Shown here: positions 2,091 through 24,500 of the stretch, one piece after another | How positions within the stretch are numbered: the first letter of the stretch is position 1 | Layout: every line of letters starts with the position of its first letter | Made by a program: the position numbers and the translations under genes | Notes under the pieces: model-generated | Database searches by the model: none | What the model was told of the DNA's origin: nothing | Seen by the model: the letters and a program-made list of their open reading frames with translations, nothing else | Origin: an uncultured Bacteroidota bacterium | Lineage (GTDB): Bacteria > Bacteroidota > Bacteroidia > Chitinophagales > LD1 | Reading direction: 5' to 3' | DNA length: 38,631 nt | Assembly (NCBI GenBank): GCA_903861145.1 | Contig: CAIOTH010000016.1 | Span: forward strand, 1 to 38,631

Positions 2091-2170
2091 CCCCTCTTTG
2101 TCGATTGCTTTGCGCAGCTTAGCTTTCGAAAGAGAGGGGATGCCGACAGGCAGGGGTGAGTTGGCTGTTG
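2091..2170. repeat. Structured intergenic repeat, copy A
   Basis: A hairpin with arms CCCCTCT (2091-2097) and AGAGGGG (2133-2139) is followed by a mini-stem TGCC/GGCA (2141-2152) and then the tail GGGGTGAGTTGGCTGTTG (2153-2170). The tail recurs in the other intergenic gaps at 5053-5069, 18772-18785 and 24482-24496. It lies between the ACMSD start and the end of the lipoprotein gene at 2192. Confidence 0.55.
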
Positions 2171-2191
2171 GGCCATTTTCCGATAAGCCTA

Positions 2192-2737
2192 CTACTGTTT
2201 TCTAAACGATTCCGTGCAGGTATAACTGGTTCCCTGATAACTATAATTCATGGTAACCGTCATAGTAGGCTTGGCACCTGCATTAACCGCCGGCGAATAA
2301 TACCCCTGCGAACCCGCCAATATCGCTACGCCATTGCTTAAGGTTTGAGGTGGTATATAAATGGTAGTACCCTCCGAGGTTGCCGAAGTATTCAATATTT
2401 GCGCATAAACAGGGCCGGTGCCAAACAGGATATCAAAGTATATCACATTAGGTGCGTAATAAGTGGTGCCTACGATGGTTGCCCTGATATTGGTATAATA
2501 AACTCCAAAGTTCGAAGGGTCGGGCGCGCAGTTTTCAAGCACTTGCCAGTCACCAATAAATTTGGTTGAACTGAGTACCGAGCAGGTATCCCCCTCATAA
2601 CCATTCAGGCAAAGACATGCTCCCTGGTAGCAGGTTTGGTACGAAGCACAAACCACATTTTTGCAGCTCTTCTTTTCGCAAGCCGAAATTGCCAGTAACG
2701 ATAAAGCAACGAATAAAACTTTGGTTAAACCTTTCAT
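2192..2737 (-). CDS. EGF-like lipoprotein, tandem paralogue 1
   Basis: This 181-residue protein is predicted to be exported and lipidated. A hydrophobic N-terminus ends in the lipobox AISAC with the lipid-carrying cysteine at residue 20. Directly after it are six cysteines at 25, 30, 36, 41, 43 and 52, with C-x4-C-x5-C-x4-C-x-C-x8-C spacing, which is an EGF-like module. The remaining ~125 residues look like a beta-rich domain with one further cysteine pair (LENCAP and YTCTESF). The protein is a clear paralogue of the gene 18 bp upstream, with identical cysteine positions. No specific function is recognised; a surface or periplasmic role is inferred from lipidation and the EGF fold. Confidence 0.85.
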   Translation of the reverse strand: MKGLTKVLFVALSLLAISACEKKSCKNVVCASYQTCYQGACLCLNGYEGDTCSVLSSTKFIGDWQVLENCAPDPSNFGVYYTNIRATIVGTTYYAPNVIYFDILFGTGPVYAQILNTSATSEGTTIYIPPQTLSNGVAILAGSQGYYSPAVNAGAKPTMTVTMNYSYQGTSYTCTESFRKQ

Positions 2738-2755
2738 GTTGTTTTGCTACTACTC

Positions 2756-3280
2756 TTATTGCTTATAAAATGTTTCCTGGCACGAATAATTGAAACTATT
2801 ATAGGTATAGTTCAAAACAATAATCATTTGCGCGGTACCATTGGTGGTTGTATAATAACCATACGAATCGCTAATTGTAATGCCACCCTGGCTTTGCGCA
2901 AAAATGTGAATTTGAGTGCCCTCGCTACTTGGGTAGGTATTATATAACTCCGCCGTAAAATCGCTACCCAGGTTAAACAAATTTGAGATAACTAAATTGC
3001 TAACCGACCCACCATTGGTTGCTATATACACCGAGTAGCTGGAAGGGTTAGGAGAGGTAACGCCACTCCCGCAATTTTCCGTAACAGTCCAGTTGCCTAT
3101 GTATTTAGTCGAGCTAAGCGTGCTGCAATCAGTCCCTTCATAGCCATTAAAGCAAGTACATTCGCCCTGGTAGCACCCTTGGTACGAAGGGCAAACCACC
3201 TTTGTGCAACTCTTTCTATCGCAAGCCGAAATAGATAGTAAAAATATGGCGGCGAAACCTAATTTTGCGAACCACTGCAT
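2756..3280 (-). CDS. EGF-like lipoprotein, tandem paralogue 2
   Basis: This 174-residue lipoprotein precursor has the lipobox SISAC (Cys20) and then EGF-like cysteines at 25, 30, 36, 41, 43 and 52, exactly as in the next gene. A beta-rich C-terminal domain shares the motifs SSTKYIGNWTVTENC, SSEGTQIHI and the closing ETFYKQ with its neighbour. It is the first gene of the pair, which is separated by 18 bp, so one transcript is likely. The start is the ATG at 3280, 50 bp from the divergent DUF3089 gene. Function is not recognised. The pair has diverged mainly in the C-terminal domain, while the lipobox and EGF part stay aligned without gaps. Confidence 0.85.
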   Translation of the reverse strand: MQWFAKLGFAAIFLLSISACDRKSCTKVVCPSYQGCYQGECTCFNGYEGTDCSTLSSTKYIGNWTVTENCGSGVTSPNPSSYSVYIATNGGSVSNLVISNLFNLGSDFTAELYNTYPSSEGTQIHIFAQSQGGITISDSYGYYTTTNGTAQMIIVLNYTYNSFNYSCQETFYKQ

Positions 3281-3330
3281 AAGGGAATTAGTTTATTGTT
3301 CAACGAAAATAAAACAACTGCTGTAACCGA

Positions 3331-4305
3331 ATGAAATCTTTAAACATTTTGGCTTTTATGTTAACGGCCCTGGCATTGCAGGCCCAAACCTTTAATGCCG
3401 CAAAGCAACCCGCCGCCCCCGATTATTCATCAGAAACCAGTTGGTCGGCCCTTCCATTCAGGCTCGATGCCGCCGATAAAATACCCGATGATGAGAAGTG
3501 GATTAGCGACTCGCTAAAGGATGTGGATGTATTCTACATCTATCCCACACTCTACATGGCCGGCAAAACATGGAACGAAGACCTGGCCAACAAAAAGCTA
3601 AACAAAAGTATTGATAACAAACCTGTAAAATACCAGGCCAGTGTTTTCAATGCAAGTTGTCGTGTATATGCGCCTCGCTACCGCCAGGCAATAATTAAAG
3701 CCTTTTACGAAAAAGAAAATGGCGATAAAGCACTCGACTTTGCCTACCAGGATGTAAAACGTGCCTTTCAATATTACCTCGACCACTACAATCATGGCCG
3801 GCCCATTATTATAGCCTCACATAGCCAGGGCACCCACCATGCACGCAGGTTGTTGAAGGAATTTTTCGACTCAACCGCCTTGCAAGGCAAACTGGTAGCT
3901 GCTTATGTAGTTGGCTATGGGTTCGACGAGAGCATGTATAAAAGCCTCAAGCCTTGTAACCAACCAACCCAAACCGGTTGCTATATTACCTGGGCCTCAT
4001 TCAAAAAAGGTTTCGAGGCCCCTAAATCCGGCCTCATCGGTTCGGTGTGCGTTAACCCCGTTAGCTGGACCCGCGACACCGTTACCGTCGACCGGTCAAA
4101 AAGCATGGGCGCCATACTACTCGACTTCAACAAAAAATACGACGGCGCATGCGAAACCGAAATACATAAAAACTACCTCTGGGTTAACGCACACGTACCA
4201 ATTGTTGGCTCGTGGCTGGTGCTACACGTAGCCGACTACAACCTCTTTTGGTACGACATCCGCAAAAACGTGCACGACAGGGTGCAGGCGTACTTAAAAA
4301 AGTAA
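3331..4305 (+). CDS. DUF3089 family secreted alpha/beta hydrolase
   Basis: This 324-residue protein has an N-terminal signal peptide ending near ALALQAQ, so it probably acts in the periplasm or outside the cell. The core matches DUF3089: VFYIYPTLY near residue 67, the tract SCRVYAPRYRQA near 109, and the nucleophile elbow IIASHSQGT with Ser165. The late WLVLHVADYNLFW segment probably supplies the catalytic histidine. The SHSQG pentapeptide fits the GxSxG-like elbow of esterase/lipase-type hydrolases, with Ser in the first Gly position. The substrate is unknown. The gene is divergent from the lipoprotein pair, with 50 bp between the start codons. Confidence 0.85.
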   Translation: MKSLNILAFMLTALALQAQTFNAAKQPAAPDYSSETSWSALPFRLDAADKIPDDEKWISDSLKDVDVFYIYPTLYMAGKTWNEDLANKKLNKSIDNKPVKYQASVFNASCRVYAPRYRQAIIKAFYEKENGDKALDFAYQDVKRAFQYYLDHYNHGRPIIIASHSQGTHHARRLLKEFFDSTALQGKLVAAYVVGYGFDESMYKSLKPCNQPTQTGCYITWASFKKGFEAPKSGLIGSVCVNPVSWTRDTVTVDRSKSMGAILLDFNKKYDGACETEIHKNYLWVNAHVPIVGSWLVLHVADYNLFWYDIRKNVHDRVQAYLKK

Positions 4306-4394
4306 TCACCGGCAAAACTGCTTTTGAAATTTCAACGGTTTGTATTAACGTTATCACTTTAAATGGCAGGGAGGTGTAAGCCTTAAAACTAAAA

Positions 4395-4428
4395 ACATGA
4401 ACACGTGAACACCTGCGCACGTGAACAC
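4395..4428 (+). repeat. Three short direct repeats ACRTGAACAC
   Basis: ACATGAACAC at 4395-4404, ACGTGAACAC at 4403-4412 and ACGTGAACAC at 4419-4428 lie just upstream of the ATG at 4438. The two CACGTG hexamers within them are palindromic. The GTG codons in the repeats extend the downstream frame, but I do not regard them as starts. Confidence 0.5.
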
Positions 4429-4437
4429 ACTGACAAC

Positions 4438-4980
4438 ATGAGCGATAGTAACTTAGGAACCGGTTCACGCATTGAGCACCCAAAATTTGGCAAAGGCGTT
4501 ATTGTCGATGTGGATATGGAGTTTTACACCGTTTGGTTTAAAGATGGAAACAGCACCCGCGGCATAGCCCGCGATTTCGATGGCTTCACCGTGCTCGAAA
4601 AAACTTCAGCCGACTCGGTGCCTATAACCCTCGAACACATCAAACAAGCCATTGCCGAAGTAATAACCGAAAAAAGCGACATACAGGAAATCGTGCCCAT
4701 GGGCAACAAATGGCTGCACGGCACGCTGGTATTTAAACCGCTCGATAACAGCCTGCAAGGCAAAGAAATTCCTATCGAAGCCTTCTTCCACAAAATAGTT
4801 ATGCTTCGCGACCGCCTCCGCGTGCTCGAGCAAAACATCAACTCACATAAGGTATTAACCGATGAAGAAAAGATAGACCTTCAACAATACATCACACGTA
4901 TTTATGGCTCACTAACCACCTTCAACGTCCTTTTCAAAAACACCGACGACCAGTTTAAAGGCACCGGTGGCGATAAATAA
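4438..4980 (+). CDS. Conserved hypothetical protein with N-terminal small beta (Tudor-like) segment
   Basis: The protein is about 180 residues, starting at MSDSNLGTG. The N-terminal ~45 residues (SRIEHPKFGKGVIVDV ... YTVWFKDG) resemble the short beta-barrel tail of UvrD/PcrA helicases and related proteins (HxxFGxGxV), which can contact protein or nucleic acid. The rest is acidic to mixed and probably helical (ITLEHIKQAIAEVI; HKIVMLRDRLRVLEQNIN; ending in a region with two short helices). There is no signal peptide or membrane segment, so it is cytoplasmic. The frame is open from a GTG at 4405, but that stretch consists of the GTGAACAC repeats, so the ATG at 4438 is chosen. I do not recognise a named family, and no function is assigned. 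Confidence 0.75.
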   Translation: MSDSNLGTGSRIEHPKFGKGVIVDVDMEFYTVWFKDGNSTRGIARDFDGFTVLEKTSADSVPITLEHIKQAIAEVITEKSDIQEIVPMGNKWLHGTLVFKPLDNSLQGKEIPIEAFFHKIVMLRDRLRVLEQNINSHKVLTDEEKIDLQQYITRIYGSLTTFNVLFKNTDDQFKGTGGDK

Positions 4981-5295
4981 TCCCGGACCATCTGCCCACA
5001 GTAGTGGCTAAAGATCCCCTCCTTTTTTTAAGGAGGGGTGGCACGAAGTGACGGGGTGGTTAGCTGTTGAGGTTTTGCCTGCAACCGCAAACCCAAAGCC
5101 TAGCGATTGCCAATTGCATTATAAACGCATAAAACCTAACACTAAATAAGCGGCTTTAAAATCTGCACACGGTTTACAAAATCAAAAAGTGTAAACCACG
5201 CCTTTTTGCAAACAGCTAAAAATCAATTACATATAAAAAATTCGGTGTAAACCATCCTTGCCATTCCTTTGCAATTCTTTTGCAGGCGCAAACGC
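4981..5295. other. 315-bp convergent gap holding repeat copy B
   Basis: The left part holds the hairpin repeat described separately. The right part is AT-rich and carries three related words: ACGGTTTACA at about 5168, and GTGTAAACCA at about 5190 and about 5245. At its right edge a hairpin with arms AGGCG/CGCCT (5284-5297) overlaps the stop codon of the peptidase gene but lacks a U-tract on that strand. I see no gene or RNA here. Confidence 0.5.
5016..5069. repeat. Structured intergenic repeat, copy B
   Basis: A perfect 9-bp hairpin, CCCCTCCTT (5016-5024) and AAGGAGGGG (5030-5038) with a TTTTT loop, is followed by a mini-stem CAC/GTG around 5042-5050 and the tail GGGGTGGTTAGCTGTTG (5053-5069). 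The order stem, mini-stem, tail is the same as in copy A at 2091-2170, although the stem bases differ. It could also act as a terminator between the convergent genes, but there is no strong U-tract after the stem. Confidence 0.6.
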
Positions 5296-6990
5296 CTACA
5301 AAGCCCTATCATCCACCGAATCCAGGTGCGCTTCAAGTTCCTTAAACAAAGGCCCAAAAGCACCCTCATCAAACGGCGATTGCAGCTTAGCCAGCTTCAC
5401 CAAATCTAAAAACGATTGGCTACCTCCTGCTTTGCATAAAGTAAGATAATCCTGCCATGCGCCTTTAAAATCCTTTTCGCTCTTGCTCCAAAATTGCAGA
5501 GCGCAAAGTTGTGCAAGGCAGTAGTCAATATAGTAAAACGGGCTGCGGTAAATATGTGCCTGGCGCTGCCAAAATCCACCGCGCTCTAAATAATCAAGGC
5601 CATCATAATCAACCCATGGGCGGTACTTCTTCTCCATATCCAGCCAAACCTGTTTGCGTTGGGCAGGGGTAAGGTCCGGGTTCTCATAAATAATATGCTG
5701 AAACTCATCAACCGCCACACCATAAGGTAAAAAAAGGATGTTCGATGCCAGGTGCACAAACTTGTATTTCTCGGTGTCCTTACCAAAAAACAAATTCATC
5801 CACGGGTAGGTAAGGTGCTCCATACTCATGCTATGTATTTCGCAGGCCTCCATGGTGGGGAAAATATACTCCTCCACCTCAAATCCCCGGCTTTCATAAC
5901 ACTGAAAAGCGTGCCCGGCCTCATGCGTCAACACATCAACATCTCCCAGCGTACCATTAAAATTGGCGAAAATAAAGGGCGCCTTGTACTTGTTAAACAT
6001 CGTGCAATACCCCCCGGCGGCTTTGCCTTTTCTGTTCACCAGGTCCATCAGGTCATTCTGCACCATAAAATCAAAAAACTCTTTAGTCTCAGCCGATAGC
6101 TCACTGTACATCTTTTGGCCATTAGCCACTATTTCTTCGGGTGTGCCAATCGGTTTCGGGTTGCCCGAATTAAAATTATGCGCCCAATCGTACAACTTCA
6201 GCTTATCAACCCCAATCCTTATCCTTTGCTTTTCGCGTAATTTCGCCGCCAGCGGAACAACATGCTTTAAAACCTGCTCGCGGTACTTCGCCACCATCTT
6301 AGCATCATAATCCGTTCTCGACATGCGGAAATACGCCAGTTCCACAAAATTTTTATAGCCGAGTTTATGGGCAATGCGCGTACGCACTTTTACCAATTTG
6401 TCGTAAATTCCATCAAATTTGGCCTCATTAAAGGCAAAAAACCGCCATTTTACGGCTAAAGCCTCTTTTCTCGTTTCCCGGTCTGTCGATTCCTGGTAAG
6501 CATCCAAAGCCGATAGGTTTAGCTTTTGCCCCCTAAACTCCACCTCGGCACTGGCAACCAGCTTAGTGTACTCAGTACTTAGCTTATTCTCTTCTTTTAA
6601 ATCATCAATTACCGATGGGTCAAACGTCTTAACACTTATATCAGCTAGCTTAAATAGTTGATTACCAAACTTGTTCTCCAATTCAGCCTTATACTTCGAG
6701 TTGCCCAGCGCCTTGTAAAACTTAATGTTCAGGTCTTTCATTCGGGGCTCATTGCTATCAAAAAACTCCTGTTCGGCCTCATAAAACGCATTGGTAGTAT
6801 CAATCGAGTTACGCACTGATGCAATAGACGAGTAGGTTTGAAACTCATTCTTTAACTCATTCACCTTCATCAATATCTCTTCCTGTTCGCTGGCATTGTT
6901 TGCCCCATCAAAGCGGGCAAGTAAATCGTTATACGCCTTTTCAACCTGCGGCAAATCAGGCCTTTTGTATTCCATTTCCGAAAACTTCAT
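5296..6990 (-). CDS. M3 family oligoendopeptidase (PepF type)
   Basis: This 564-residue cytoplasmic zinc metallopeptidase degrades short peptides. The zinc motif HEAGH is at residues 356-360, and the downstream glutamate ligand lies in EACEIHSMSMEHL around 381-391, the usual M3 arrangement. The N-terminal half is a long helical region (PepF/M3_N type). The C-terminal catalytic segment contains RSPFYYIDYCLAQLCALQFW, typical of the M3 oligoendopeptidase family. Length fits that family. There is no signal peptide. The gene follows a membrane-protein gene on the same strand with a 36-bp gap. The start MKFSEMEYKRP is the first ATG and fits the family. Confidence 0.93.
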   Translation of the reverse strand: MKFSEMEYKRPDLPQVEKAYNDLLARFDGANNASEQEEILMKVNELKNEFQTYSSIASVRNSIDTTNAFYEAEQEFFDSNEPRMKDLNIKFYKALGNSKYKAELENKFGNQLFKLADISVKTFDPSVIDDLKEENKLSTEYTKLVASAEVEFRGQKLNLSALDAYQESTDRETRKEALAVKWRFFAFNEAKFDGIYDKLVKVRTRIAHKLGYKNFVELAYFRMSRTDYDAKMVAKYREQVLKHVVPLAAKLREKQRIRIGVDKLKLYDWAHNFNSGNPKPIGTPEEIVANGQKMYSELSAETKEFFDFMVQNDLMDLVNRKGKAAGGYCTMFNKYKAPFIFANFNGTLGDVDVLTHEAGHAFQCYESRGFEVEEYIFPTMEACEIHSMSMEHLTYPWMNLFFGKDTEKYKFVHLASNILFLPYGVAVDEFQHIIYENPDLTPAQRKQVWLDMEKKYRPWVDYDGLDYLERGGFWQRQAHIYRSPFYYIDYCLAQLCALQFWSKSEKDFKGAWQDYLTLCKAGGSQSFLDLVKLAKLQSPFDEGAFGPLFKELEAHLDSVDDRAL

Positions 6991-7530: not shown

Positions 7531-7705
7531 ACAATTAAATATTTCTAAATGCTTTGCTTTTTATGACTAATCGCCTTAAAAATCAAATAAAAACGTGAAA
7601 TAAGGATTATTCCCGCAAAAACAATAAATTAATCTACAAGCATTTTTTTCCCAAATGTTAAGGTATATTTCTATTTTCGCTCTTCTAAAACTAAAATTTC
7701 GTCTG
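7531..7705 (+). promoter_or_regulatory. Upstream region of the giant gene
   Basis: This AT-rich region lies between the divergent membrane-protein gene and the giant gene. Two near-matches to TAnnTTTG are visible, TATATTTC at about 7662 and TATTTTCG at about 7671. Either would place the transcription start downstream of the ATG at 7655, which supports the ATG at 7706 as the real start. Neither match is exact, so this is tentative. Confidence 0.25.
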
Positions 7706-10700
7706 ATGAAAAACATTTTACGAGTTGTTACCCTTGTATTTATATTATCTGGATTTACAATTGTACAAGCTCAACCTGGCTGTCCTGAAGTAAATACAAC
7801 AGCCATTGTAAATATCCCATGCGGTCAAACTTGCGCTAACCTTACTGCAACGGCTTTCTCAGGTGCAACTACAACTTCCTATACTGTGGGTGCAATTACA
7901 TACGCGCCACCTTTTACTTTTAACTCAGGCACTCAGGTTCTGGTAGCAATCGACGACAGATGGTCAAGTGTAATTAACCTGCCCTTCAATTTCTGCTTTT
8001 ACGGCAATACTTTTAATAAGGCTATTGTAGGTTCAAACGGGTGTATTTCGTTTAACACAGGCAATGCAGGCCTCCTTAATAACTGGAGCATACCTGCAGG
8101 CGGTGCACCATTTACCGGCGAAACCGACATGCGTAACAGCATTATGGCCCCTTGGCAGGATTTGGACCCTACTAATGCAGGTCAAATATTTTATAATGTG
8201 GGCGGTTCGGCCCCTTGCCGTTATATGGAAGTTTCATGGTACCATTGCCCAATGTACGGCGACCCTAATAGCGTTGCTACCGGCTTTTGTACTACTTCTT
8301 ATCAGCAAACGCAAATGGCGGTTATTTACGAAACCTCAAATGCAATTGAAGTTTATATACAAGCCAAAGGCACACCGTGTACCGGTTGGAACAACGGATG
8401 GGCTATTGAAGGTTTAATGAACGGAAACGGAACCGCTGCAACAGTTGTTCCCGGAAGAAATGCTACCGTTTGGGGCCCTGTAACTAACGATGCTTACCGC
8501 TTTACCCCTGCCGGCGCACCTAACTATACTATTGCTTGGTTTAATGCCGGCGGAACTCAAATCGGAACAGGTTCTGCTATTACAGTATGTCCTCCTGCCG
8601 GTTCTACCAAATATGTAGCACAAGCTACTTATACCAATTGCGACAACTCAACAGTTGTTGTTAGCGCCAACGTTTTTGTAGGCTTATCAAATTTAAGTGT
8701 AGCCCATTCTCAAACACCTATTACTTGTTATAACGATAATAACGGCTCGGTTACAGCAACAATTAACTCAACTTCAGGCCTTATTTCTTATGGTTGGGCG
8801 CCGGGCGGTGCAGGGCAAACCACGCTTAGCAACTTGGCGGCGGGCACTTATATCTTTACCGTTACCGATTCATTAGGTTGTGTAGCACGCGATACCGAAA
8901 GGATAACTAACCCCTCTCAAATAATTTCCAGCGTTGCTAATGATACCGTTGCATCTTGTACCGGTAACACTACTAATGGCTCACTATTAGCTACTGTAAG
9001 CGGCGGTGCACCTGGCTATACTTTCCGTTGGACAGGCGGCGCTACCACAAACCCGCTTACCGGTTTGGGTATTGGTACGTATGGTGTTCGGATTACCGAT
9101 AGTCACGGTTGTAAGGATACCGCCTTCGGAACAGTTTCAGTAAAAGCCCACTTGGTTTCTCTTGGGGTTGGACAGGTTACCCCGGCCTCGTGTTTTGGAG
9201 GTAGTAACGGTCAAATTATTGCTGGCAACTTAACGGGTGGTGTAAACCCTGTAACTTTTAGTTGGTCATCGGGCACAAGCACTACCGATACTTTGCCGGG
9301 TTTAGCTGCCGGCACATATACTGTAACGGCTACCGACGCTAATGGTTGTTCGGCCAGCGCACAATATACGGTTGGCCAGGCTACGGCAATTGTTGTAACG
9401 GTGCCTAACGATACCGTCCCTTCTTGTAACTCTTTAACTAATAATGGTACCCTCACTGCTTCAGCCACTGGCGGAACTCCCGGCTATACTTATAGCTGGA
9501 CCGGTGGCACAACCACTAATCCGGTAACCGGGTTAAGTGTAGGTGCTTATACCGTAACAATAACCGATAGCCACGGTTGTACTGCAACAGGCAGCGGCAG
9601 CGTTTCGGTAAGCGTTCATCCTATAACATTTGGTCAACCTCAAATTACCAATGCCTCGTGCTTTGGTGGAACTAACGGCCAGGTTATTGCTCCTATAAAC
9701 GGCGGCTCTAATCCTATTACTTATTCATGGTCTGTGGTTAGCAGCACCACCGATACTTTATCGGGTGTTGGTGCAGGCACTTATACAGTAACAGCAACCG
9801 ATGCTAATACTTGCTCGGCAACTGCTTCGTTTACTGTTGGCCAGGCTACAGCAATTGTTGTTACTGTACCTAACGATACAGTTCAATCTTGCAGCCCTAC
9901 AACTACGCATGGCACACTTACAGCTACGGTTTCTGGCGGAACTCCCGGCTATACTTATAGCTGGACCGGTGGCTCAACCACCAACCCGGTTTCAAGCCTT
10001 GGTGTAGGTACGTACGTGGTCACGGTTACCGATAGAAATAACTGTACCGCAAGCGCAAGTGCTGCTGTTTCGGTAAGTGTTCATCCAATCACATTTAACC
10101 AGCCTCAAATTACCAATGTAACCTGTTTGGGCGGAAGCAATGGCCGCATTATTGTTACGGTTACCGGTGGTGTTAATCCTATTACCTACAACTGGTCTGT
10201 TGGTAACGGCCATACCGATACTTTGGCAAATCTTGCTGCGGGCACTTACACCGTTACGGCTATAACCGCCGATGGTTGTTCTGCAACAGCTTCATATACT
10301 ATTACCCAGCCTTTAACCGGCGTTTCTGCAACAGTGGCTAACGATACCGTTACTTCTTGTAGCGGCAACTCTAATATCGGAACTTTAATTGCAGTTGTAA
10401 CCGGTGGCACTCCGGCTTATACTTATAGCTGGACCGGTGGTTCAACTACTAATCCTATTAATAACCTTCTAGCCGGCACTTATACTGTAACCGTTCACGA
10501 TGTTTTTGGTTGCTCTGCAACTGCTTCGGGTAGTGTTGTTACACATGTTAGTTCACTGGGTATTACCGGTGTAGTAAGCAATCCTATTTGCTTCGGCCTT
10601 AAAGGACAAATTATTGTTACTGTAACCGGCGCAACACCTCCTATTACTTATAGCTGGAATCCCGGCAACAGCACAACCGATACCTTATCAGGTATTGGCG

Positions 10701-13700
10701 GCGGCGTTTATAATGTAACGGCTACTGATGCCAACGGATGTTCTATCAGTGCTTCATTCACGGTAAACCAACCAACAGCTTTAGTTGTAACCGTTCGTAA
10801 CGATACTATCATTACTTGTAGCGGTGTTACCACTGCGGGCACATTAACTGCCGGCGCAACCGGTGGCACACCTACATATACTTATAGCTGGGGAAATAAC
10901 GCTACCACAAACCCTATTACTGGGCTTGGCGCTGGCACTTATCCGGTAACAGTTACCGACTTTGTAGGTTGTACTGCAACCGGTTCAGGTTCGGTTATCG
11001 TTGTCGGCAATCCGGTAACGTTCAACGCACCTCAAATTACCGAAGCTACCTGCGCAGGTTCTTCAACCGGCCAGATTATTCTTAGCATCAGCGGAGGAAC
11101 TCCTCCAATTACATTCTCTTGGTCTGGTGGAACAACTCAAAATGATACTTTAAGAAATCTTGGTGCGGGCACATATGGTATAACGGCTACCGATGGAACA
11201 GGTTGTTCAGCAACTGCTTCTTATACAATTACACAAGGCAGTCCTATCACTTTTGGTCAACCTACAATTACTAATGTAGGTTGCACCGGTGGCAATAACG
11301 GAGCTATCACAGTTTTAGCTTCTGGTGGCAACGGTGTCTTTACTTATAGCTGGAGCAATAGTATGACAGGCAACTCCATTACCGGTTTAGCAGCAGGTGG
11401 CATATCAGTAACTGCAACCGATGGCAACGGATGCTCTGCATCGGCTCTTTTCACAATCGGCCAATCAGCGCCAATATCAATTGGCACACCAACAGTAACC
11501 GGTGTTTCTTGTACCGGTAACGACGGAACAATTTCTGTAACTGCAACCGGTGGTACTGGCACTCTTACATATCACTGGAATCCGGGTAACCATACAGGTA
11601 GCTCAATTACCGGCCTCGCTGCAGGTGGTTATACCTTAACCGTAACCGATGCAAATGGCTGTAGCGCTACTGCTTACTATATAGTGGGCCATACCGATTG
11701 CGGTTGCCCTGAAGTTATACCTGGCAGCAATAACGTAAACATACCTTGTTCTCAAACATGTGCTACCTTAACTGCAACAGCATTTAGTGCAGCACAAACA
11801 ACAAACTATACAGCAGCAGCAATAGCTTATAACCCTCCATTTGCCTACAATGTTGGAACACCAATATTGGTTGCTATTGATGACCAATGGTCTGGTGTAA
11901 TTAACCTACCGTTTACTTTCTGTTTCTGGGGTGTGGCTCACAACCAAATCGTAGTGGGTTCAAACGGCGAAGTTTCTTTCAATACCGGTAATGCTGGTGG
12001 TTTCGATAACTGGAGCATACCTGGCCCGCTGCCTCCTACGCAGGCTGACCAGCGTAACGTAATCATGGCTCCATGGCAGGATTTGGACCCTACTTATCAC
12101 GGCCATATTTATTATAACATAACAGGCACCGCACCTTGCCGTAAATTCGAGGTATCATGGGATGATGTTCCTATGTTCGGCGACTCTGGTAGCGTTGATA
12201 ACGGCTACTGCTCTCATACCCTGCATCAAACTTCAGAAATGGTGCTTTATGAAACCACTAACGCAATTGATATTTATATTCAGAAAAAAGACATCGCTTG
12301 TACCGATTTAAGCGGTGGTACTTACTGGAATGGCGGTTTGGCAATTGAAGCTATTACCGGCCCTGTCAACCAGTTTGTTGCCGTACCGGGAAGAAACGGA
12401 ACGCAATGGACAGCTGCCAACGATGCATGGAGATTTACACCATCTGGTGCACCTAACGTTACCATAGCTTGGTTCCAGGGTGGTAACCAAATTGGTACCG
12501 GCCCTTCAATAAATGTTTGTCCGTTAGTTCCTACTACTTACGTTGTTAATGCCACTTATACCGACTGTGCAAACAACCAGGTAATTGTAGGCGATAGCGT
12601 TTATGTTACACCGGGTGGTAGCTTAACAGTTAACATCGACTCTATTCACAACGTACTTTGCAATGGCGATAGCAACGGAGCTGTTTATGCTTCATACACC
12701 GATACCGGTGGCACTATTACCTCATTTGGCTGGAGCCCGGGTGGTGCAAACCAAACTTCATTGGTTGGTATACCAGCAGGTACTTATATTTTCCATGTAA
12801 CTACTTCTACAGGCTGTACTAAGTCAGATACTGTGGTGCTTACAAATCCTGCACCGGTTGTTGTAACTGTTCCTGACGATACATTTAATAGCTGTTCGGT
12901 TAATAACCTTGGCACACTTACTGCCACCGGTTCGGGTGGCACACCGGGTTACACTTACTCATGGAGTAACGGTGCTACTACTGCAACTATTACCGGCCTT
13001 ACACCCGGCACTTACCATGTTACCACTACCGATAGCCACGGCTGTACCGGTAGCGCTGTAGCAACAGTTGTTCAAATCAGCGGCAACTTAACGCTTACTT
13101 CCAGCCAGGTTAAAAATGCTACCTGCACAACAGGCGGTTCAATCATCATTGGTGTAACCGGTGGTGTAGCTCCAATTACCTACTCATGGTCGCCAAGCGA
13201 ACCTAATAATGATACTATCACCGGTTTAGCAGCAGGCACTTACACAGTTACTGCTACCGATGCCGGCGGATGTACGGTTTCAGCTTCATTCACTATCACT
13301 GCACCGGCACCGGTGTTTATTGGTGCACCGGTTATTAAGAATGTTACTTGCAATGGCTCAGCTAACGGCGGCATCATTGTTCGTGCAAGCGGCGGTACTC
13401 CTCCACTTGGTTTTACATGGGCTCCAACTGAACCTAACACCGATACCCTTACCGGCTTAGCACCTGGTTCATACTGCGTAACCGTTACCGATTCGACAGG
13501 TTGTACCGCAAGTGCTTGTTACAACATTACCCAGCCATCTCCAATAGCTAACGATTCAGTAGTTATTGATAGCGTTACTTGTACCACAGGTGGTTCAGTA
13601 TTTGTTTACGATACGGGAGGCATTGCACCTTTAACCTATTCATGGTCTAACGGTTCAACTACCGATTCAATTACCAATGTAGGAGCAGGCACCTATACAC

Positions 13701-16700
13701 TTACTGTTACAGATGCACACGGATGTAGCATTACTGCATCTTATGTAGTACCTACGGCAGCGGGTGCAATCGTATTTGGCCCTCCTGTAATTGTAAATAC
13801 TTCATGTAACGGCGATAGCACCGGTAGCATTACAGTTACTGCTACAGGCGGCGGTGGCACTATTACTTACAGTTGGAGCAACGGTGCTACAACTGCAACT
13901 ATATCAGGTTTACCTGCCGGTACTTATACCGTTACGGCGTCCGATAACATCAGTTGTACCGCAACTGCTTCTTATACAATCATTCAACCCGTTGCTATTG
14001 CGTTTGGCAATGCAATTATCGATAGCGCTTCATGTAATGGCGCAAGCGATGGTAGCATTATCGTAACGGCTACAGGCGGGGTTAATCCTATAACTTATGC
14101 CTGGTCTAATAACATGACAGGCGATACCATCACAGGCTTAGCTGCAGGTGTTTACTGTGTTGTTGCTACGGATAGCGTTGGCTGCTCTGCAAGCATTTGC
14201 TATGGCGTTAGCGAGCCTGCACCTATCGTGGTTGATAGCGCAGTTATTACGCCGGTATCTTGTACTGCATCTGGCAAGGTTGTTATTTACCCTTCGGGCG
14301 GAACAGCTCCTTATACTTATAGCTGGACTACCGGCTCAACCGGCGACAGCACTATAGTTGCTCAGTCTGGAACAGTAACAGTAACTATTACAGATGCACA
14401 CCATTGCACTGGCACAGCAAGCTATACATTAAACGCTGGTGTGGGTGCTGTTAGAATTGATAGCGCTGCTATTACCAACGTAAGCTGTAATGGCGGAAAT
14501 AACGGTGGTATCATTGTATACGCAAGCGATAGCCTCGGCGGTCCTATAACTTATGTTTGGAACAACCAATCTACCAGCGATACTTTAACTGGTCTTTCAA
14601 TCGGCACTTACACAATTACTGCTACAGATTCATCAGGTTGTTCAGTAACTGCTTCTTACAACATCACTCAACCAAACGCAATAACTTTTGGTACACCGGT
14701 AATTGTTTCTCCGGCTTGTAACGGAAACAACAACGGCAGCATTACTGTTACCGCAACCGGTGGCACAGGAACTATTACTTATAGCTGGACCGGTGGTGTT
14801 CTAGGCGCAACCGATACCGCCCTTGTAGCAGGAACATACACAGTTACAGCAACCGATTCATTGGGTTGCTCAGCAACTGCTTCATACACTGTAACTCAAC
14901 CACAGCCAGTAACTTTTGGTAACTCAATAGTTGATAGCATTACGTGTAATGGTGCCGGCAACGGTAGCATCACAGTAGTGGGTAATGGTGGAACAGGTTC
15001 ATTTACTTATGCTTGGAGTAATCAATTAACCGGAGCCACTATATCAGGCCTTTCAGCCGGCCAATACTGTGTAACTGCAACCGATAGCCTTGGCTGTTCT
15101 GCAAGCACATGCTTTACACTCACCGATCCTCCTTTGCTAACTATCGATTCAGCACATGTTACTGAAGCTACCTGCGTATTGGGTGGAACGGTAGTTGTTT
15201 ATGCAAGCGGCGGAACCGGTGCATTAACTTATAGCTGGTCATCAAGCGCTTCAGTAATCGATTCAGCAGGTGGCCTTGCAGGCGGACCAATAACAGTAAC
15301 TGTTACCGATTCAAGAGGCTGCACTGTAACTGCAACTTATACAGTTCCTTCAGCTCCTAACACGGTGGTTATTGATTCTGCAACTATTGTAAACGTAACT
15401 TGTAACAGTGGAAACACCGGAAGCATAACCGTTTACGCAAGCGGTGGCACCGGTTCGTTACATTATGTATGGAACCCTAACGTTGGCTCTACTTCAACCG
15501 TTACCGGTTTAGCTGCTGGCAGCTACGGTGTGGTTGTTACCGATAGCCTTGGCTGTTCGGCAAGCGCAACATACAACGTAACTCAACCTAACCCGCTAGT
15601 AGTTACAAACGCCAATATACACGCAGCAAGCTGTGTTGTTGGTGGAACAATTGTGATTACTGTTGGTGGCGGAACTACTCCTTATACTTATAGCTGGTCA
15701 GTTAGCAATTCAACAACCGATTCTGTTGGCGGCCTTTCAGGCGGTCAGTCTATTACAGTAACAGTTACCGATAGCAATAGCTGTAGCTTAACAGCAACGT
15801 ATGTTATACCTAACCTGCCTAACAGCGTGGTTATCGACTCGGCTAACGTAACCAACATTTCATGTAACGGCTTAACTGACGGTCACATCACTGTATATGC
15901 AAGCGGTGGCGTTGGTACACTTACTTATTCATGGAGTCCAAGCGGAACAACTAATACCATAACCGGTCTTGGTGTTGGCACTTACTCAATTACTATAACC
16001 GATAGCCTTGGTTGCACGGCAAGCGCTCAATACAACATAAGCCAACCGGCTGTATTAACCATAACAAACGACGTTATTACCTCAGCAACTTGTGCAAAAG
16101 GTGGTACCATACTTCTTACGGTTACCGGTGGCACAACACCATACGTATTTAGCTGGAGTCCTGGTAGCTCTGTTGTAGATTCAGTAACCAACCTTGCAGG
16201 TGGTGTTGTTAACGTAACCGTTACCGACCACAATGGTTGCAGCACTACAGCAACATACACAGTACCGGTAATACCTAATACGGTTTCAATAGATTCAGAC
16301 CATATAACCAACGAACTTTGCCATGGTGGCAATAACGGTAGCATTGCCGTATTTGCAAGCGGCGGCAACGGCACACTTGGATATACCTGGACACCTACTG
16401 AGCCAAGCTCTTCAAGCATAAGCTCGTTGCCTGCAGGCAGCTATACAGTTACTGTAACCGATAGCCTTGGTTGTACAGCTACTGCAACGTATGCTGTAAC
16501 CCAACCTACTGCACTTAACATCGATAGCCTTGTTATGACACAGGTAACTTGTACCAATCAAGGTTCGTTAGATGTTTATGTTTCAGGTGGTACACCTGGA
16601 TATACTTATAGCTGGACCGGTGGTGCTACTACCGACTCAATAGGTGGTCTTAACGCGGGAACTTATAATGTTACTATTACTGATGCTCATGGTTGTTCAA

Positions 16701-18652
16701 TCACCGGAAGCGGCACAGTAACTACTGCACCTAACTCAATTGTTCTTGGCTTCGACTCGCTTGAGCCTACCTGCTTCGGATTAAGCAATGGCACATTAAC
16801 AGCTCAGGCATCTGGTGGTGCTGGTGGCTTTACATACTCGTGGGGTGGTGGCCAAACAACGGCTACTATTACAGGCTTAGCTATTGGCACTTATTGTGTA
16901 ACAGTAAAAGATGCCAACGGTTGTACCAAGAATGCTTGCTACACTTTAAGCCAGCCTGCGTTGTTAGCTATAACAAGCTTCACCAATATTCAGGCAACTT
17001 GTAACACGCTTGGCTCAATGTTAGCTGTGGTACAGGGCGGAACGGGCCCTTACGCTTACGTATGGTATAACGGTGCAACTACCAATCCTATTACAGGCTT
17101 AATTGGTGGTTCTATCGAATGTGTAACAGTTACCGACCATAATGGATGCGCGGTTAATGCGTGCGATACCTTACTTCCTGCACCTGCTCCATTAGTTATA
17201 ATCGATTCAGCAATTGCAAATAACTTGTGCTACGCAGGTAGTGCGGGTAGTATTTCAATTACAGTTGCTGGTGGCCTTGGCGGTTACACTTATCTGTGGA
17301 GCCCTAACGGCGCCACTTCTAATCCTATCACTGGCCTTGTTGCAGGAACTTACCATGTAACAGTTAACGGCACCGGTGGTTGTCAGTTAACCGATTCATT
17401 TACTGTCACACAACCTGGCCCTTACTCGGCAACAGTTCAGGCCGCACCTAGAGTTTGTCCTGGTGCATGCGATACGGCTAACGTAACTATAGTTGGTGGC
17501 ACACCTGGCTATACTTATAGCTGGAGCAATGGTCAAACTACTCAATTAGCTGAGTTCTGTAATCTTACAACAGTTCCAACAGCAGCTGGCGTAATAGTAA
17601 CCGATAACGTAGGTTGCACAGTATCTGCATCTCGTAATGTAAGTGCTGCAGCTCAAATTACCGACACGGCCGAAGTAGTTCCTCATCCATGTGCGGGTGG
17701 TGGTACTGTAACGGTAGTTGCAACCGGTGGTGCTGGTGGCCCATTAACTTATATCTATACACCGGGGGGCACTCCAACTAACAGTGGTGCATTCGGCAAC
17801 TTAGGTTCAGGTCCTTATACTTACACAATTACCGATACATTAGGTTGTTCAGTAAGTGGTGCATTCGTTGTTCCGCCTTCTGCTCCGGCCGATGTGGATT
17901 CAATCTTTGCCGATTCAACAAGCTGCTTTGGATTCAGCGATGGTAGCATCACGGTTATTGAAGATAGCCTGCAAAATGCGCCATTCACTTATTCAATCAA
18001 TGGTGGTGCATTTGGCAACAGCAATGTATTCGATAGCTTGGGTGTTGGTACTTACCAGGTTATAGTTCATAACAGTCATGGTTGTGCCGATACGTTATCT
18101 GCTACTGTAGGTCAGCCTGCACAAATGGGAATATCGTTCAACCCAGATACGATACAAGGCATTGCTAACTACGCAACTCCATTAAACCCTACGGTTGTTA
18201 ATGCTGTAAACCCTGTTTACTCATGGACTCCGGCAACAGGCTTAAGCTGCACTAACTGTGCCGATCCTACTGCTACACTTACTGCACCGCAGTTATACTT
18301 TGTAACTGTAAGCGATTCATTGAATCCTAAGTGTCATGTAAGCGACTCGGTTCTTGTTTACTTAAAAGGACCTCTTGTTATGCCTGATGCGTTTACACCA
18401 AACGGTGACGGTAAGAACGACTTCTTCGGACCTGTTACACATACTTACGTAATTGTTAAAGAATTCCACATCTACAATCGTTGGGGTCAATTAATACACA
18501 ACTCTACCGATCCATGGGATGGTAAATTCGATGGCAAAGAACAGCCTTCAGGTACTTATATCTACTACATAGTAGGCGAGTACGAAGATCCTGCTAACCC
18601 TGGTAATTATATTACCGGTAAACAGGAAGGCGCTGTTACCTTGTTGAGATAA
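7706..18652 (+). CDS. Giant SprB-repeat surface protein with T9SS type B sorting domain
   Basis: This cell-surface or secreted protein has about 3,648 residues. The start at 7706 gives a clean signal peptide (KNILRVVTLVFILSGFTIVQAQ); an in-frame ATG at 7655 adds 17 residues and spoils it. In numbering from 7655, the order is: a Cys-rich beta domain (~43-344), 13 SprB-type repeats of ~77 residues (345-1348), a second copy of the beta domain (1349-1653), 24 more repeats (1654-3489), a Cys-containing Ig/PKD-like segment (3490-3575), and the sorting domain (3576-3665; PDAFTPNGDGKNDFF, IYNRWGQLIH, PSGTYIYYI). Each repeat has the form S/TC-x-GG-x-NG ... YSW ... GLAAGTYTVTVTD-x-x-GCSA, usually with two cysteines. 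Known relatives include the gliding adhesin SprB of Flavobacterium. An adhesin or motility role is inferred, not shown. The gene is monocistronic, ending at a terminator. Confidence 0.93.
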   Translation: MKNILRVVTLVFILSGFTIVQAQPGCPEVNTTAIVNIPCGQTCANLTATAFSGATTTSYTVGAITYAPPFTFNSGTQVLVAIDDRWSSVINLPFNFCFYGNTFNKAIVGSNGCISFNTGNAGLLNNWSIPAGGAPFTGETDMRNSIMAPWQDLDPTNAGQIFYNVGGSAPCRYMEVSWYHCPMYGDPNSVATGFCTTSYQQTQMAVIYETSNAIEVYIQAKGTPCTGWNNGWAIEGLMNGNGTAATVVPGRNATVWGPVTNDAYRFTPAGAPNYTIAWFNAGGTQIGTGSAITVCPPAGSTKYVAQATYTNCDNSTVVVSANVFVGLSNLSVAHSQTPITCYNDNNGSVTATINSTSGLISYGWAPGGAGQTTLSNLAAGTYIFTVTDSLGCVARDTERITNPSQIISSVANDTVASCTGNTTNGSLLATVSGGAPGYTFRWTGGATTNPLTGLGIGTYGVRITDSHGCKDTAFGTVSVKAHLVSLGVGQVTPASCFGGSNGQIIAGNLTGGVNPVTFSWSSGTSTTDTLPGLAAGTYTVTATDANGCSASAQYTVGQATAIVVTVPNDTVPSCNSLTNNGTLTASATGGTPGYTYSWTGGTTTNPVTGLSVGAYTVTITDSHGCTATGSGSVSVSVHPITFGQPQITNASCFGGTNGQVIAPINGGSNPITYSWSVVSSTTDTLSGVGAGTYTVTATDANTCSATASFTVGQATAIVVTVPNDTVQSCSPTTTHGTLTATVSGGTPGYTYSWTGGSTTNPVSSLGVGTYVVTVTDRNNCTASASAAVSVSVHPITFNQPQITNVTCLGGSNGRIIVTVTGGVNPITYNWSVGNGHTDTLANLAAGTYTVTAITADGCSATASYTITQPLTGVSATVANDTVTSCSGNSNIGTLIAVVTGGTPAYTYSWTGGSTTNPINNLLAGTYTVTVHDVFGCSATASGSVVTHVSSLGITGVVSNPICFGLKGQIIVTVTGATPPITYSWNPGNSTTDTLSGIGGGVYNVTATDANGCSISASFTVNQPTALVVTVRNDTIITCSGVTTAGTLTAGATGGTPTYTYSWGNNATTNPITGLGAGTYPVTVTDFVGCTATGSGSVIVVGNPVTFNAPQITEATCAGSSTGQIILSISGGTPPITFSWSGGTTQNDTLRNLGAGTYGITATDGTGCSATASYTITQGSPITFGQPTITNVGCTGGNNGAITVLASGGNGVFTYSWSNSMTGNSITGLAAGGISVTATDGNGCSASALFTIGQSAPISIGTPTVTGVSCTGNDGTISVTATGGTGTLTYHWNPGNHTGSSITGLAAGGYTLTVTDANGCSATAYYIVGHTDCGCPEVIPGSNNVNIPCSQTCATLTATAFSAAQTTNYTAAAIAYNPPFAYNVGTPILVAIDDQWSGVINLPFTFCFWGVAHNQIVVGSNGEVSFNTGNAGGFDNWSIPGPLPPTQADQRNVIMAPWQDLDPTYHGHIYYNITGTAPCRKFEVSWDDVPMFGDSGSVDNGYCSHTLHQTSEMVLYETTNAIDIYIQKKDIACTDLSGGTYWNGGLAIEAITGPVNQFVAVPGRNGTQWTAANDAWRFTPSGAPNVTIAWFQGGNQIGTGPSINVCPLVPTTYVVNATYTDCANNQVIVGDSVYVTPGGSLTVNIDSIHNVLCNGDSNGAVYASYTDTGGTITSFGWSPGGANQTSLVGIPAGTYIFHVTTSTGCTKSDTVVLTNPAPVVVTVPDDTFNSCSVNNLGTLTATGSGGTPGYTYSWSNGATTATITGLTPGTYHVTTTDSHGCTGSAVATVVQISGNLTLTSSQVKNATCTTGGSIIIGVTGGVAPITYSWSPSEPNNDTITGLAAGTYTVTATDAGGCTVSASFTITAPAPVFIGAPVIKNVTCNGSANGGIIVRASGGTPPLGFTWAPTEPNTDTLTGLAPGSYCVTVTDSTGCTASACYNITQPSPIANDSVVIDSVTCTTGGSVFVYDTGGIAPLTYSWSNGSTTDSITNVGAGTYTLTVTDAHGCSITASYVVPTAAGAIVFGPPVIVNTSCNGDSTGSITVTATGGGGTITYSWSNGATTATISGLPAGTYTVTASDNISCTATASYTIIQPVAIAFGNAIIDSASCNGASDGSIIVTATGGVNPITYAWSNNMTGDTITGLAAGVYCVVATDSVGCSASICYGVSEPAPIVVDSAVITPVSCTASGKVVIYPSGGTAPYTYSWTTGSTGDSTIVAQSGTVTVTITDAHHCTGTASYTLNAGVGAVRIDSAAITNVSCNGGNNGGIIVYASDSLGGPITYVWNNQSTSDTLTGLSIGTYTITATDSSGCSVTASYNITQPNAITFGTPVIVSPACNGNNNGSITVTATGGTGTITYSWTGGVLGATDTALVAGTYTVTATDSLGCSATASYTVTQPQPVTFGNSIVDSITCNGAGNGSITVVGNGGTGSFTYAWSNQLTGATISGLSAGQYCVTATDSLGCSASTCFTLTDPPLLTIDSAHVTEATCVLGGTVVVYASGGTGALTYSWSSSASVIDSAGGLAGGPITVTVTDSRGCTVTATYTVPSAPNTVVIDSATIVNVTCNSGNTGSITVYASGGTGSLHYVWNPNVGSTSTVTGLAAGSYGVVVTDSLGCSASATYNVTQPNPLVVTNANIHAASCVVGGTIVITVGGGTTPYTYSWSVSNSTTDSVGGLSGGQSITVTVTDSNSCSLTATYVIPNLPNSVVIDSANVTNISCNGLTDGHITVYASGGVGTLTYSWSPSGTTNTITGLGVGTYSITITDSLGCTASAQYNISQPAVLTITNDVITSATCAKGGTILLTVTGGTTPYVFSWSPGSSVVDSVTNLAGGVVNVTVTDHNGCSTTATYTVPVIPNTVSIDSDHITNELCHGGNNGSIAVFASGGNGTLGYTWTPTEPSSSSISSLPAGSYTVTVTDSLGCTATATYAVTQPTALNIDSLVMTQVTCTNQGSLDVYVSGGTPGYTYSWTGGATTDSIGGLNAGTYNVTITDAHGCSITGSGTVTTAPNSIVLGFDSLEPTCFGLSNGTLTAQASGGAGGFTYSWGGGQTTATITGLAIGTYCVTVKDANGCTKNACYTLSQPALLAITSFTNIQATCNTLGSMLAVVQGGTGPYAYVWYNGATTNPITGLIGGSIECVTVTDHNGCAVNACDTLLPAPAPLVIIDSAIANNLCYAGSAGSISITVAGGLGGYTYLWSPNGATSNPITGLVAGTYHVTVNGTGGCQLTDSFTVTQPGPYSATVQAAPRVCPGACDTANVTIVGGTPGYTYSWSNGQTTQLAEFCNLTTVPTAAGVIVTDNVGCTVSASRNVSAAAQITDTAEVVPHPCAGGGTVTVVATGGAGGPLTYIYTPGGTPTNSGAFGNLGSGPYTYTITDTLGCSVSGAFVVPPSAPADVDSIFADSTSCFGFSDGSITVIEDSLQNAPFTYSINGGAFGNSNVFDSLGVGTYQVIVHNSHGCADTLSATVGQPAQMGISFNPDTIQGIANYATPLNPTVVNAVNPVYSWTPATGLSCTNCADPTATLTAPQLYFVTVSDSLNPKCHVSDSVLVYLKGPLVMPDAFTPNGDGKNDFFGPVTHTYVIVKEFHIYNRWGQLIHNSTDPWDGKFDGKEQPSGTYIYYIVGEYEDPANPGNYITGKQEGAVTLLR
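7781..8686 (+). repeat. Globular domain copy 1 within the giant gene
   Basis: This encodes ~302 residues from CPEV through the end of the first beta-rich domain. Matched blocks shared with copy 2 include IPC-x-QTCA-LTATAFS, VAIDD-x-WS-VINLPF, VGSNG, FNTGNAG, NWSIP, IMAPWQDLDPT and VPGRN. It directly precedes SprB array 1. Confidence 0.85.
8687..11698 (+). repeat. SprB repeat array 1 (13 repeats)
   Basis: This encodes thirteen ~77-residue repeats. Repeats 2-11 alternate between two subtypes, one beginning VVTVPNDTV-x-SC and the other beginning PITF-x-QPQIT-x-A/VSC. This makes a two-repeat unit with a period of about 465 bp, seen five times. Repeats 4-5 and 6-7 share long nearly identical DNA stretches, for example around 9479-9515 and 9944-9980. 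Confidence 0.85.
11699..12613 (+). repeat. Globular domain copy 2 within the giant gene
   Basis: This begins CGCPEV directly after repeat 13 and matches copy 1 along its whole ~305 residues, although the DNA has diverged. It encodes the same landmarks (IPCSQTCA, VAIDDQWSGVINLPF, VGSNG, IMAPWQDLDPT, VPGRNGTQW) and, like copy 1, is followed by a repeat of the GWSPGGA type. Confidence 0.85.
12614..18121 (+). repeat. SprB repeat array 2 (24 repeats)
   Basis: This encodes twenty-four repeats averaging 76-77 residues. Long repeats with CNGxxNG and shorter ones with CxxGGT alternate regularly from about 15.1 to 16.7 kb. Five repeats (array-wide numbers 17, 20, 24, 32 and 33) have an extra cysteine pair at fixed positions, YCV or ECV, then ACY, ICY, TCF or ACD. 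The last three repeats are the most divergent. Confidence 0.85.
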
Positions 18653-18709: not shown

Positions 18710-18785
18710 CCCCTTCCGTCCCCTAAAGGGGAAACCAGAGCCGGCTTTGGTTTCCCCTTTAGGGGACGGAAGGGGCTGGCTGTTG
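18710..18785. repeat. 66-bp near-perfect palindrome plus shared tail, copy C
   Basis: Positions 18710-18736 and 18749-18775 are perfect 27-bp inverted arms. The 12-nt centre is itself self-complementary except for one G/T pair, so the whole 66 bp folds into one hairpin. It is followed by GGGGCTGGCTGTTG (18772-18785), which matches the tail of copies A and B. Confidence 0.85.
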
Positions 18786-24458: not shown

Positions 24459-24481
24459 AAAGAGATGGCATCTTTACGACC

Positions 24482-24496
24482 GGTGAGTTGGCTGTT
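24482..24496. repeat. Isolated tail of the intergenic repeat, copy D
   Basis: GGTGAGTTGGCTGTT matches the last part of copy A (2154-2168) without a hairpin of its own. It lies in the 64-bp convergent gap just after the DUF748 terminator. Confidence 0.4.
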
Positions 24497-24500
24497 TTTA

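Follow-up and report, generated by a model that had tools for sequence, protein, structure and literature searches.

The structured intergenic repeats considered here come from a stretch of 38,631 nucleotides (nt), hereafter the window, which is contig C16 (CAIOTH010000016.1) of a 4.7-Mb genome in 174 contigs from an uncultured Bacteroidota bacterium. They recall several described systems, each of which has part of their design and none of which we found to have all of it. Closest in appearance are the repetitive extragenic palindromic (REP) sequences which, with their REP-associated tyrosine transposases (RAYT), make up the REPtron; they are defined by an unpaired GTAG or CGTC tag at one end of the unit (PMC3733652). 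Like REPs, the repeats of the window, which we call types A, B and C, are short palindromic units with a tail, present in many copies, mostly intergenic, flanking the gene of a DNA-cutting enzyme and abundant in gene-less form; unlike REPs, they have no conserved GTAG or CGTC tag, and the enzyme that they flank is a DUF559 (Vsr-like) protein and not a Y1 HUH transposase. The Rickettsia palindromic elements are palindromic repeats inserted in-frame in protein genes, as related units are in relatives of our bacterium, but the accessible part of the report (PMC10969869) gives their length as about 150 bp and mentions no nuclease, whereas in our case the hairpins are accompanied by the gene of one. 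Miniature inverted-repeat transposable elements (MITEs) offer a third comparison, with inverted ends around the gene in the full element and short gene-less copies such as that at 18710-18775 of the window; unlike in MITEs, no transposase is involved, and a target-site duplication has not been established here. Finally, the DUF559 profile matches the structures 3hrl_A (4.8e-29) and 3r3p_A, annotated 'mobile intron protein' (5.6e-4), the latter of which we take to be I-Bth0305I. Vsr-like homing endonucleases of the 3r3p kind share with our system this profile similarity and an insert that is present or absent at one site in orthologues; the hairpin element ends and the gene-less repeats set our system apart, as does the lack of an intein domain in the inserts scanned.

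We think it probable that these repeats are the terminal units of small mobile elements whose sole gene encodes a DUF559 (Vsr-like, PD-(D/E)XK) nuclease. The observations behind this reading are the covariation of the stems, the dispersal of the copies, the absence of the type A and B copies from a syntenic relative, the repeats flanking DUF559 genes, the presence or absence of in-frame elements in leucyl-tRNA synthetase (LeuRS) genes, and a partial correspondence of hairpin types to nuclease lineages. A sequence-only reading of the window had proposed a mobile REP-like unit or selection on a folded DNA or RNA, and both ideas are supported by the absence of A and B in the relative, the dispersal and the covarying stems. 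What it missed was the partner: the repeats would be the ends of DUF559-nuclease elements and not REPs of the RAYT kind.

Structured repeats in the window and across genomes

The type A copy (2089-2170, + strand) has a stem at 2091-2097/2133-2139 closing a long internal loop, a mini-stem formed by TGCC (2141-2144) and GGCA (2149-2152), and the tail GGGGTGAGTTGGCTGTTG (2153-2170). In the type B copy (5014-5070, + strand) the stem CCCCTCCTT/AAGGAGGGG (5016-5024/5030-5038) is followed by the mini-stem CAC (5042-5044)/GTG (5048-5050) and by the tail GGGGTGGTTAGCTGTTG (5053-5069), and the order stem, mini-stem, tail that the sequence-only reading had described for 2091-2170 and 5016-5069 is indeed seen at both sites. 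The type C copy is a palindrome (18710-18775, assigned to neither strand) with two 33-nt arms that are 97% complementary, adjoined on the + strand by the outer tail CTGGCTGTTG (18776-18785). A tail had been reported after this palindrome, at 18772, and one does lie there, but it lacks the GGGGTG core, the outer GGCTGTT being the sole part in common with A and B. The tail pattern occurs six times in the window at up to three mismatches, against 1.15 expected, and none of 100 shuffles had as many. Three of the four copies first reported hold; the fourth, a lone tail placed at 24482, corresponds to CCGGTGAGTTGGCTGTTT (24480-24497, + strand), which has three mismatches, cannot be distinguished from chance and was rejected as a full copy. 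The tail had also been called the most conserved part; what A and B have in common with relatives is GGGGTG(A/G)GTT, and GGCTGTT is absent at one end of an element in the related genome G011 (locus L095).

In the genome to which the window belongs (the source genome), copy A has 11 BLAST matches, eight of them near full length, and copy B has 17, many of them partial. A covariance model, R1, built from four copies of the source genome with the window copies excluded, matched 23 sites there, including both window copies (5014-5070, E 1.3e-16; 2089-2171), and was present in 30 of the 60 genomes searched, the source genome counted; the 150 matches listed are a lower bound overall, while the 23 of the source genome are complete. 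R1 gave no match to five divergent type A copies in loci L029-L033. When R1 was run over 88 of 158 sources, 75 matches could be aligned, giving 62 distinct rows, across which all 13 stem pairs have changed on both sides. Pairing was kept in 97.4% of cells, against 83.4% in shuffled alignments and 55-75% for slid structures, and covariation reached 0.327 against 0.116, a value attained in 0 of 500 shuffles; the size of this effect is inflated because the alignment was fitted to the R1 model, but both controls still lie well below it. The scan thus found further copies, with compensatory stem changes, as the sequence-only reading required. Its claim that stem and mini-stem differ while pairing is kept stands for the 13 covarying pairs and is narrower for the mini-stem, which reads CAC/GTG, GTCC/GGAC, GCCC/GGGC or GGCC/GGCC among B copies but is nearly invariant in eight type A copies (TGCC/GGCA, with a single change in one), so that the variation lies among B copies and between the types. 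The constant orientation that had been noted carries no signal, because the R1 matches of the source genome fall on both strands (8 on +, 15 on -), and a meaningful common orientation was rejected. Some B-like copies are composite, a further stem (TGCTTCATCCCGCGG...GGGCGGGA) separating the main stem from the mini-stem, as in the source genome at C36:35478-35561, at C130:9218-9301 and near C7:45760.

Comparison with a relative suggests that the copies have moved. Contig C94 of G006 is collinear with the window from 5 to 21364, and copy A is absent at the syntenic site both there and in the G011 contig; at copy B, the 316-nt gap 4981-5296 shrinks to 13 nt in G006. R1 finds no match in the examined stretches of the G006 and G011 contigs. 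The absence of A and B fits insertion in the lineage of the source genome, although the absence of B in G006 may also reflect loss.

DUF559 genes and their flanking hairpins

DUF559 was found in 36 of the 60 genomes, the source genome included, with 92 matches, and its genes are associated with flanking hairpin repeats. Each of the three DUF559 genes of the source genome has repeats on both sides (flank scores 98, 78 and 63). A first set comprised 52 of the 62 stand-alone matches, these three included, the other ten being short, partial or at a contig end; 49 of them had enough flank for scoring and three did not. At a cut-off of 40 or more, inverted flank repeats occur at 34 of these 49 genes (31 of 46 without those of the source genome), against 2.6% of 2228 mispaired cross-genome flanks, and inverted or direct repeats at 40 of 49, against 3.6%; among ordinary genes, a control of 33 only, there was no inverted and one direct case. 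A second, named set was drawn as the best 80 of at least 547 confirmed DUF559 loci, mostly from Bacteroidota; 76 were usable and seven were shared with the first set. Within this best 80, inverted repeats flank 29 of the 76 genes and inverted or direct repeats 50 of 76, against 2.0% and 3.5% of 5700 mispaired flanks (25 and 45 of 69 without the shared loci). Records that carry the labels Nitrospirae (L189), Anaerolineaceae (L211), Myxococcales (L223), Stagnimonas (L220) and Sideroxydans (L246), among them several metagenome bins, have flank repeats scoring 40 or more as well.

The link to the window is most direct for type C. On contig C173 a DUF559 gene is bounded by CCCCTTCCGTCCCCTAAAGGGGAAACCA on one side and by nearly the reverse complement of it on the other; these are the arms of the window palindrome, and the right end of that element runs on as ...GGGGCTGGCTGTTTG. 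The palindrome at 18710-18775 thus reads as both ends of the C173 element joined, with the gene missing, and the evidence within the source genome for terminal inverted repeats in common with a longer element covers type C and not A or B. Type C matches are many in the source genome (82 rows, a palindrome being counted on both strands), in G011 and in G006; G013 and G012 have fewer, and the 13 other members of the genus have none at E 0.001. At most 40 candidates each were scored for G000, G011 and G006.

For the A/B architecture the link comes from relatives. Beside the DUF559 gene at L095 of G011, the right side reads CCCCTCTC...GAGAGGGG, GTCCGC/GCGGAC, GGGGTGAGTTGGCTGTT, which is the architecture of the sequence-only reading, and stem, mini-stem and GGGGTGAGTT stand on both sides of the gene, the left unit without GGCTGTT. 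At L111 a pair of type B-like units lies on each side, the outer ones ending in GGGGTGGTTAGGCTGTT with the tail pointing outward and the inner ones inverted. Among the 150 listed R1 matches, a count by hand puts 17 no more than 500 nt from a DUF559 match; they are spread over eight DUF559 loci in seven genomes, and genome length alone would predict well under one. A single partial DUF559 match in G030 accounts for five of the 17, and an HsdR open frame in G059 contains three. The motif GGGTGAG/GGGGTGGT was counted in 19 of 49 DUF559 flanks, where shuffles predict 4.5, in 25 of the 76 usable loci among the best 80 of the named set, and at 6 of 29 genes of Y1 transposases (2.05 expected), so that the motif alone separates DUF559 from Y1 flanks only modestly.

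Nuclease and hairpin also vary together to some extent. Across 1068 cross-genome DUF559 pairs, protein similarity correlates with flank similarity (rho 0.26, reached in 0 of 500 Mantel permutations), and before filtering a flank score of 50 or more was found in 28 of 47 pairs with protein similarity of at least 0.6 against 1 of 910 below 0.45, some of the 28 being long common neighbourhoods or gene extensions. We take this as moderate support for nuclease lineage and hairpin type being partly linked. Over the 60 genomes the DUF559 and R1 counts are correlated with rho 0.61, or 0.46 (p 0.053) when only the genus is considered, and the presence table (27/9/3/21) gives p 3e-6, both of these comparisons ignoring kinship.

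In-frame elements in relatives

Further evidence of mobility lies inside protein genes, in relatives and not among the window copies. Thirty of the 92 DUF559 matches (three of them weak) fall in open frames of at least 300 amino acids, as do 48 of 148 distinct DUF559 domains in the loci examined. Pfam domains identify the hosts of 14 such open reading frames (ORFs) as LeuRS (five), an isoleucyl-tRNA synthetase (IleRS) type, so named from its domain set (three), HsdR (two), MetH, UvrA, an Eco57I-type methylase and a MeaB-like protein. Pfam scans of these 14 ORFs (four at E 1e-5, ten at E 1e-15) found neither an intein nor a Hint domain.

The LeuRS site is the clearest case of presence and absence. 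Between two conserved motifs the stretch measures 519-582 nt in G006, G011, G012 and G008. The remaining 16 loci in which both motifs were found have 84-108 nt there, the source genome among them with 87 nt; judged from split matches, the site is filled in four of 18 genus members, short in 11 and undetected in three. In G006 and G011 the insert opens with a sequence resembling C(C/A)CTCACCCC, followed by a hairpin, and closes with a second hairpin and GGGTGAGG; the inserts of G012 and G008 also have hairpins at both ends, with a different outer sequence. On a tree of 146 DUF559 domains, a rough one with few columns and unsettled bootstrap values, a single clade of 37 rows (97/89) takes in 33 of 47 in-frame domains, and the domains group by host label, with two changes for IleRS against 8.8 when shuffled and four for LeuRS against 11.7.

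Two observations on these host genes may be added in their own right. At the LeuRS site of L257, L258, L261 and L263, from genus members that have no DUF559 insert, there are in-frame tandem repeats of 7-8 nt (such as TTCAAAG and AATTCAG), and L255 has a hairpin-like remnant; the site looks as if it were a hot spot for repeats of several kinds. At L080 (G059:C17), one HsdR ORF combines DUF559 and GIY-YIG domains with the hairpin unit, which occurs in it several times in-frame.

Alternative origins, mechanism and meaning

A number of results weigh against the view that the repeats are ends of DUF559 elements. In the source genome none of the 23 R1 matches and eight type A copies lies within 500 nt of the three DUF559 genes, and types A and B are orphans there. 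R1 stands beside the gene in only 6 of 51 DUF559 regions, and other DUF559 genes carry other hairpins; at the cut-off used, 15 of 49 genes lack inverted flanks and nine lack repeats of either kind. Unit orientation is not fixed: tails face away from the gene at L095, as they do within the LeuRS inserts that G006 and G011 carry, but towards it at L091, L094, L125 and L147. The link between protein and flank falls to 15 of 47 close pairs (rho 0.19) once long or gene-touching flank alignments are removed, and many of the close nuclease pairs come from one clade. Three genomes (G001, G007, G013) have R1 without a DUF559 hit, and nine have the reverse. The type C site is not counted as empty, because G006 has a shorter hairpin-like sequence there, and neither a target-site duplication nor an exact boundary could be established, the empty sites being too diverged. 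Finally, a protein with the same Pfam domain, Caulobacter VsrA, has been interpreted as a mismatch-repair nuclease and tied to the DNA damage response in cells without the methyltransferase; unlike for the element nuclease, repeats are not mentioned in the accessible part of that study (PMC12907096).

Several of these points would suit an explanation in which DUF559 is cargo or an addiction-like passenger and the hairpins owe their spread to processes of the host (replication slippage, template switching, recombination) or to an unseen enzyme. The repeats outnumber the DUF559 genes and occur in those three genomes where none was found, their boundaries are ragged, and the flank copies are often direct and variable in orientation, so that DUF559 could indeed be a passenger. 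We nevertheless give this explanation rather little weight. The catalytic residues D44, E55, D57 and H61 are invariant across 14 diverse DUF559 members; a common hairpin is more frequent among close nucleases than among distant ones, even when the strictly filtered close pairs (15 of 47) are set against unfiltered distant pairs (1 of 910); and the DUF559 and R1 counts rise together across genomes.

An origin as REP-type repeats moved by Y1 tyrosine transposases acting on folded single strands, whether RAYTs or those associated with terminal inverted repeats (TIRYTs), has its own attractions. Y1 genes are present in 48 of the 60 genomes, the source genome included, and their flanks have repeats as well: of 29 scored, 11 show inverted repeats and 17 show repeats of either kind, inverted or direct. 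GGGGTGAG fits the GGGGWSAS reported for some tyrosine transposase terminal repeats (PMC3733652), which is again a point against DUF559, and at C105:14690-15287 of the source genome a Y1 gene has a type C copy some 300 nt away, perhaps by chance given dozens of copies. Yet the palindromes beside Y1 genes are often of other kinds, such as TATAGCCCACGGTTTAAACCGTGGGCTATA, and R1 occurs at one place in 32 Y1 loci (98 kb), more than 1 kb from the gene, compared with its positions directly beside DUF559 genes. A conserved GTAG tag was not seen in A and B, inspected by eye, or in C, which was checked, and GACG (reverse complement CGTC) is found in some B copies only. A Y1-driven origin we accordingly hold to be unlikely, and RAYT/REP was rejected on the near absence of R1 from Y1 loci and the other palindromes in Y1 flanks. 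The many Y1/RAYT genes with palindromes of their own (TATAGCCCACGGTTTAAACCGTGGGCTATA) at L054, L055, L056 and L310-L338 form a parallel repeat system in the same genomes.

The third alternative, regulatory RNAs or terminators kept for gene expression, would account for strong hairpins with compensatory change and for the position of the copies, all 19 of those examined in the source genome being intergenic (10 tandem, five divergent, three convergent and one with a single neighbour). The statement that the copies lie in gaps is confirmed for these 19 but does not extend to relatives, where related units lie inside open frames. A general role at transcript ends is not favoured, because five of the 18 copies with genes on both sides sit between divergently transcribed genes. 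A and B are, moreover, absent in the syntenic relative, and Rfam at gathering thresholds gave no match to the repeat copies. We regard this alternative as very improbable, and an RNA regulator or terminator as the general role was rejected on the Rfam result and the divergent-gene positions. The window's only Rfam match is an S-adenosylmethionine (SAM) riboswitch (RF00162, 36879-36989, + strand, 60.7 bits). Elsewhere in the window, an ORF of 3665 amino acids (7655-18652, + strand) contains many diverged repeats at a spacing of about 230 nt.

Returning to the DUF559 elements, we suggest a likely pathway by which such units would move. The full element would consist of one DUF559 nuclease gene flanked on either side by hairpin units, usually in inverted orientation; in the A/B kind each unit would be a stem, a second mini-stem and the tail GGGGTG(A/G)GTT, other lineages having other hairpins. 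The window copies would then be gene-less derivatives, single ends in the case of A and B and both ends joined in the case of C. The nuclease may recognize its own hairpin type and nick or break the DNA there or at the target, after which repair would copy the element or a folded end into the break in the style of homing endonucleases. Pairing would be kept because the folded end is the substrate, and sequence would drift because each nuclease lineage has its own hairpins. That DUF559 drives the mobility, and how, we infer by analogy with homing endonucleases and REPtrons.

Whether this amounts to a distinct class of mobile element, in which a lone Vsr-like DUF559 nuclease between hairpin ends homes through cleavage followed by repair, leaves gene-less REP-like repeats scattered in genomes, and enters essential enzymes (LeuRS, IleRS, MetH, UvrA) in-frame, to be translated there together with its hairpins as an unspliced extra domain, seems to us an evenly balanced question. 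Our searches of an open-access library, which covers few subscription journals, yielded no description linking DUF559 to such repeats. One prediction is plain: a purified DUF559 protein should act on its own hairpin type. The reading offers a likely origin for a widespread class of structured intergenic repeats, a candidate mobiliser other than a transposase, and a plausible biological role for DUF559 beyond repair; if true, it would also account for the nuclease domains with proline-rich linkers in the aminoacyl-tRNA synthetases of Bacteroidota.

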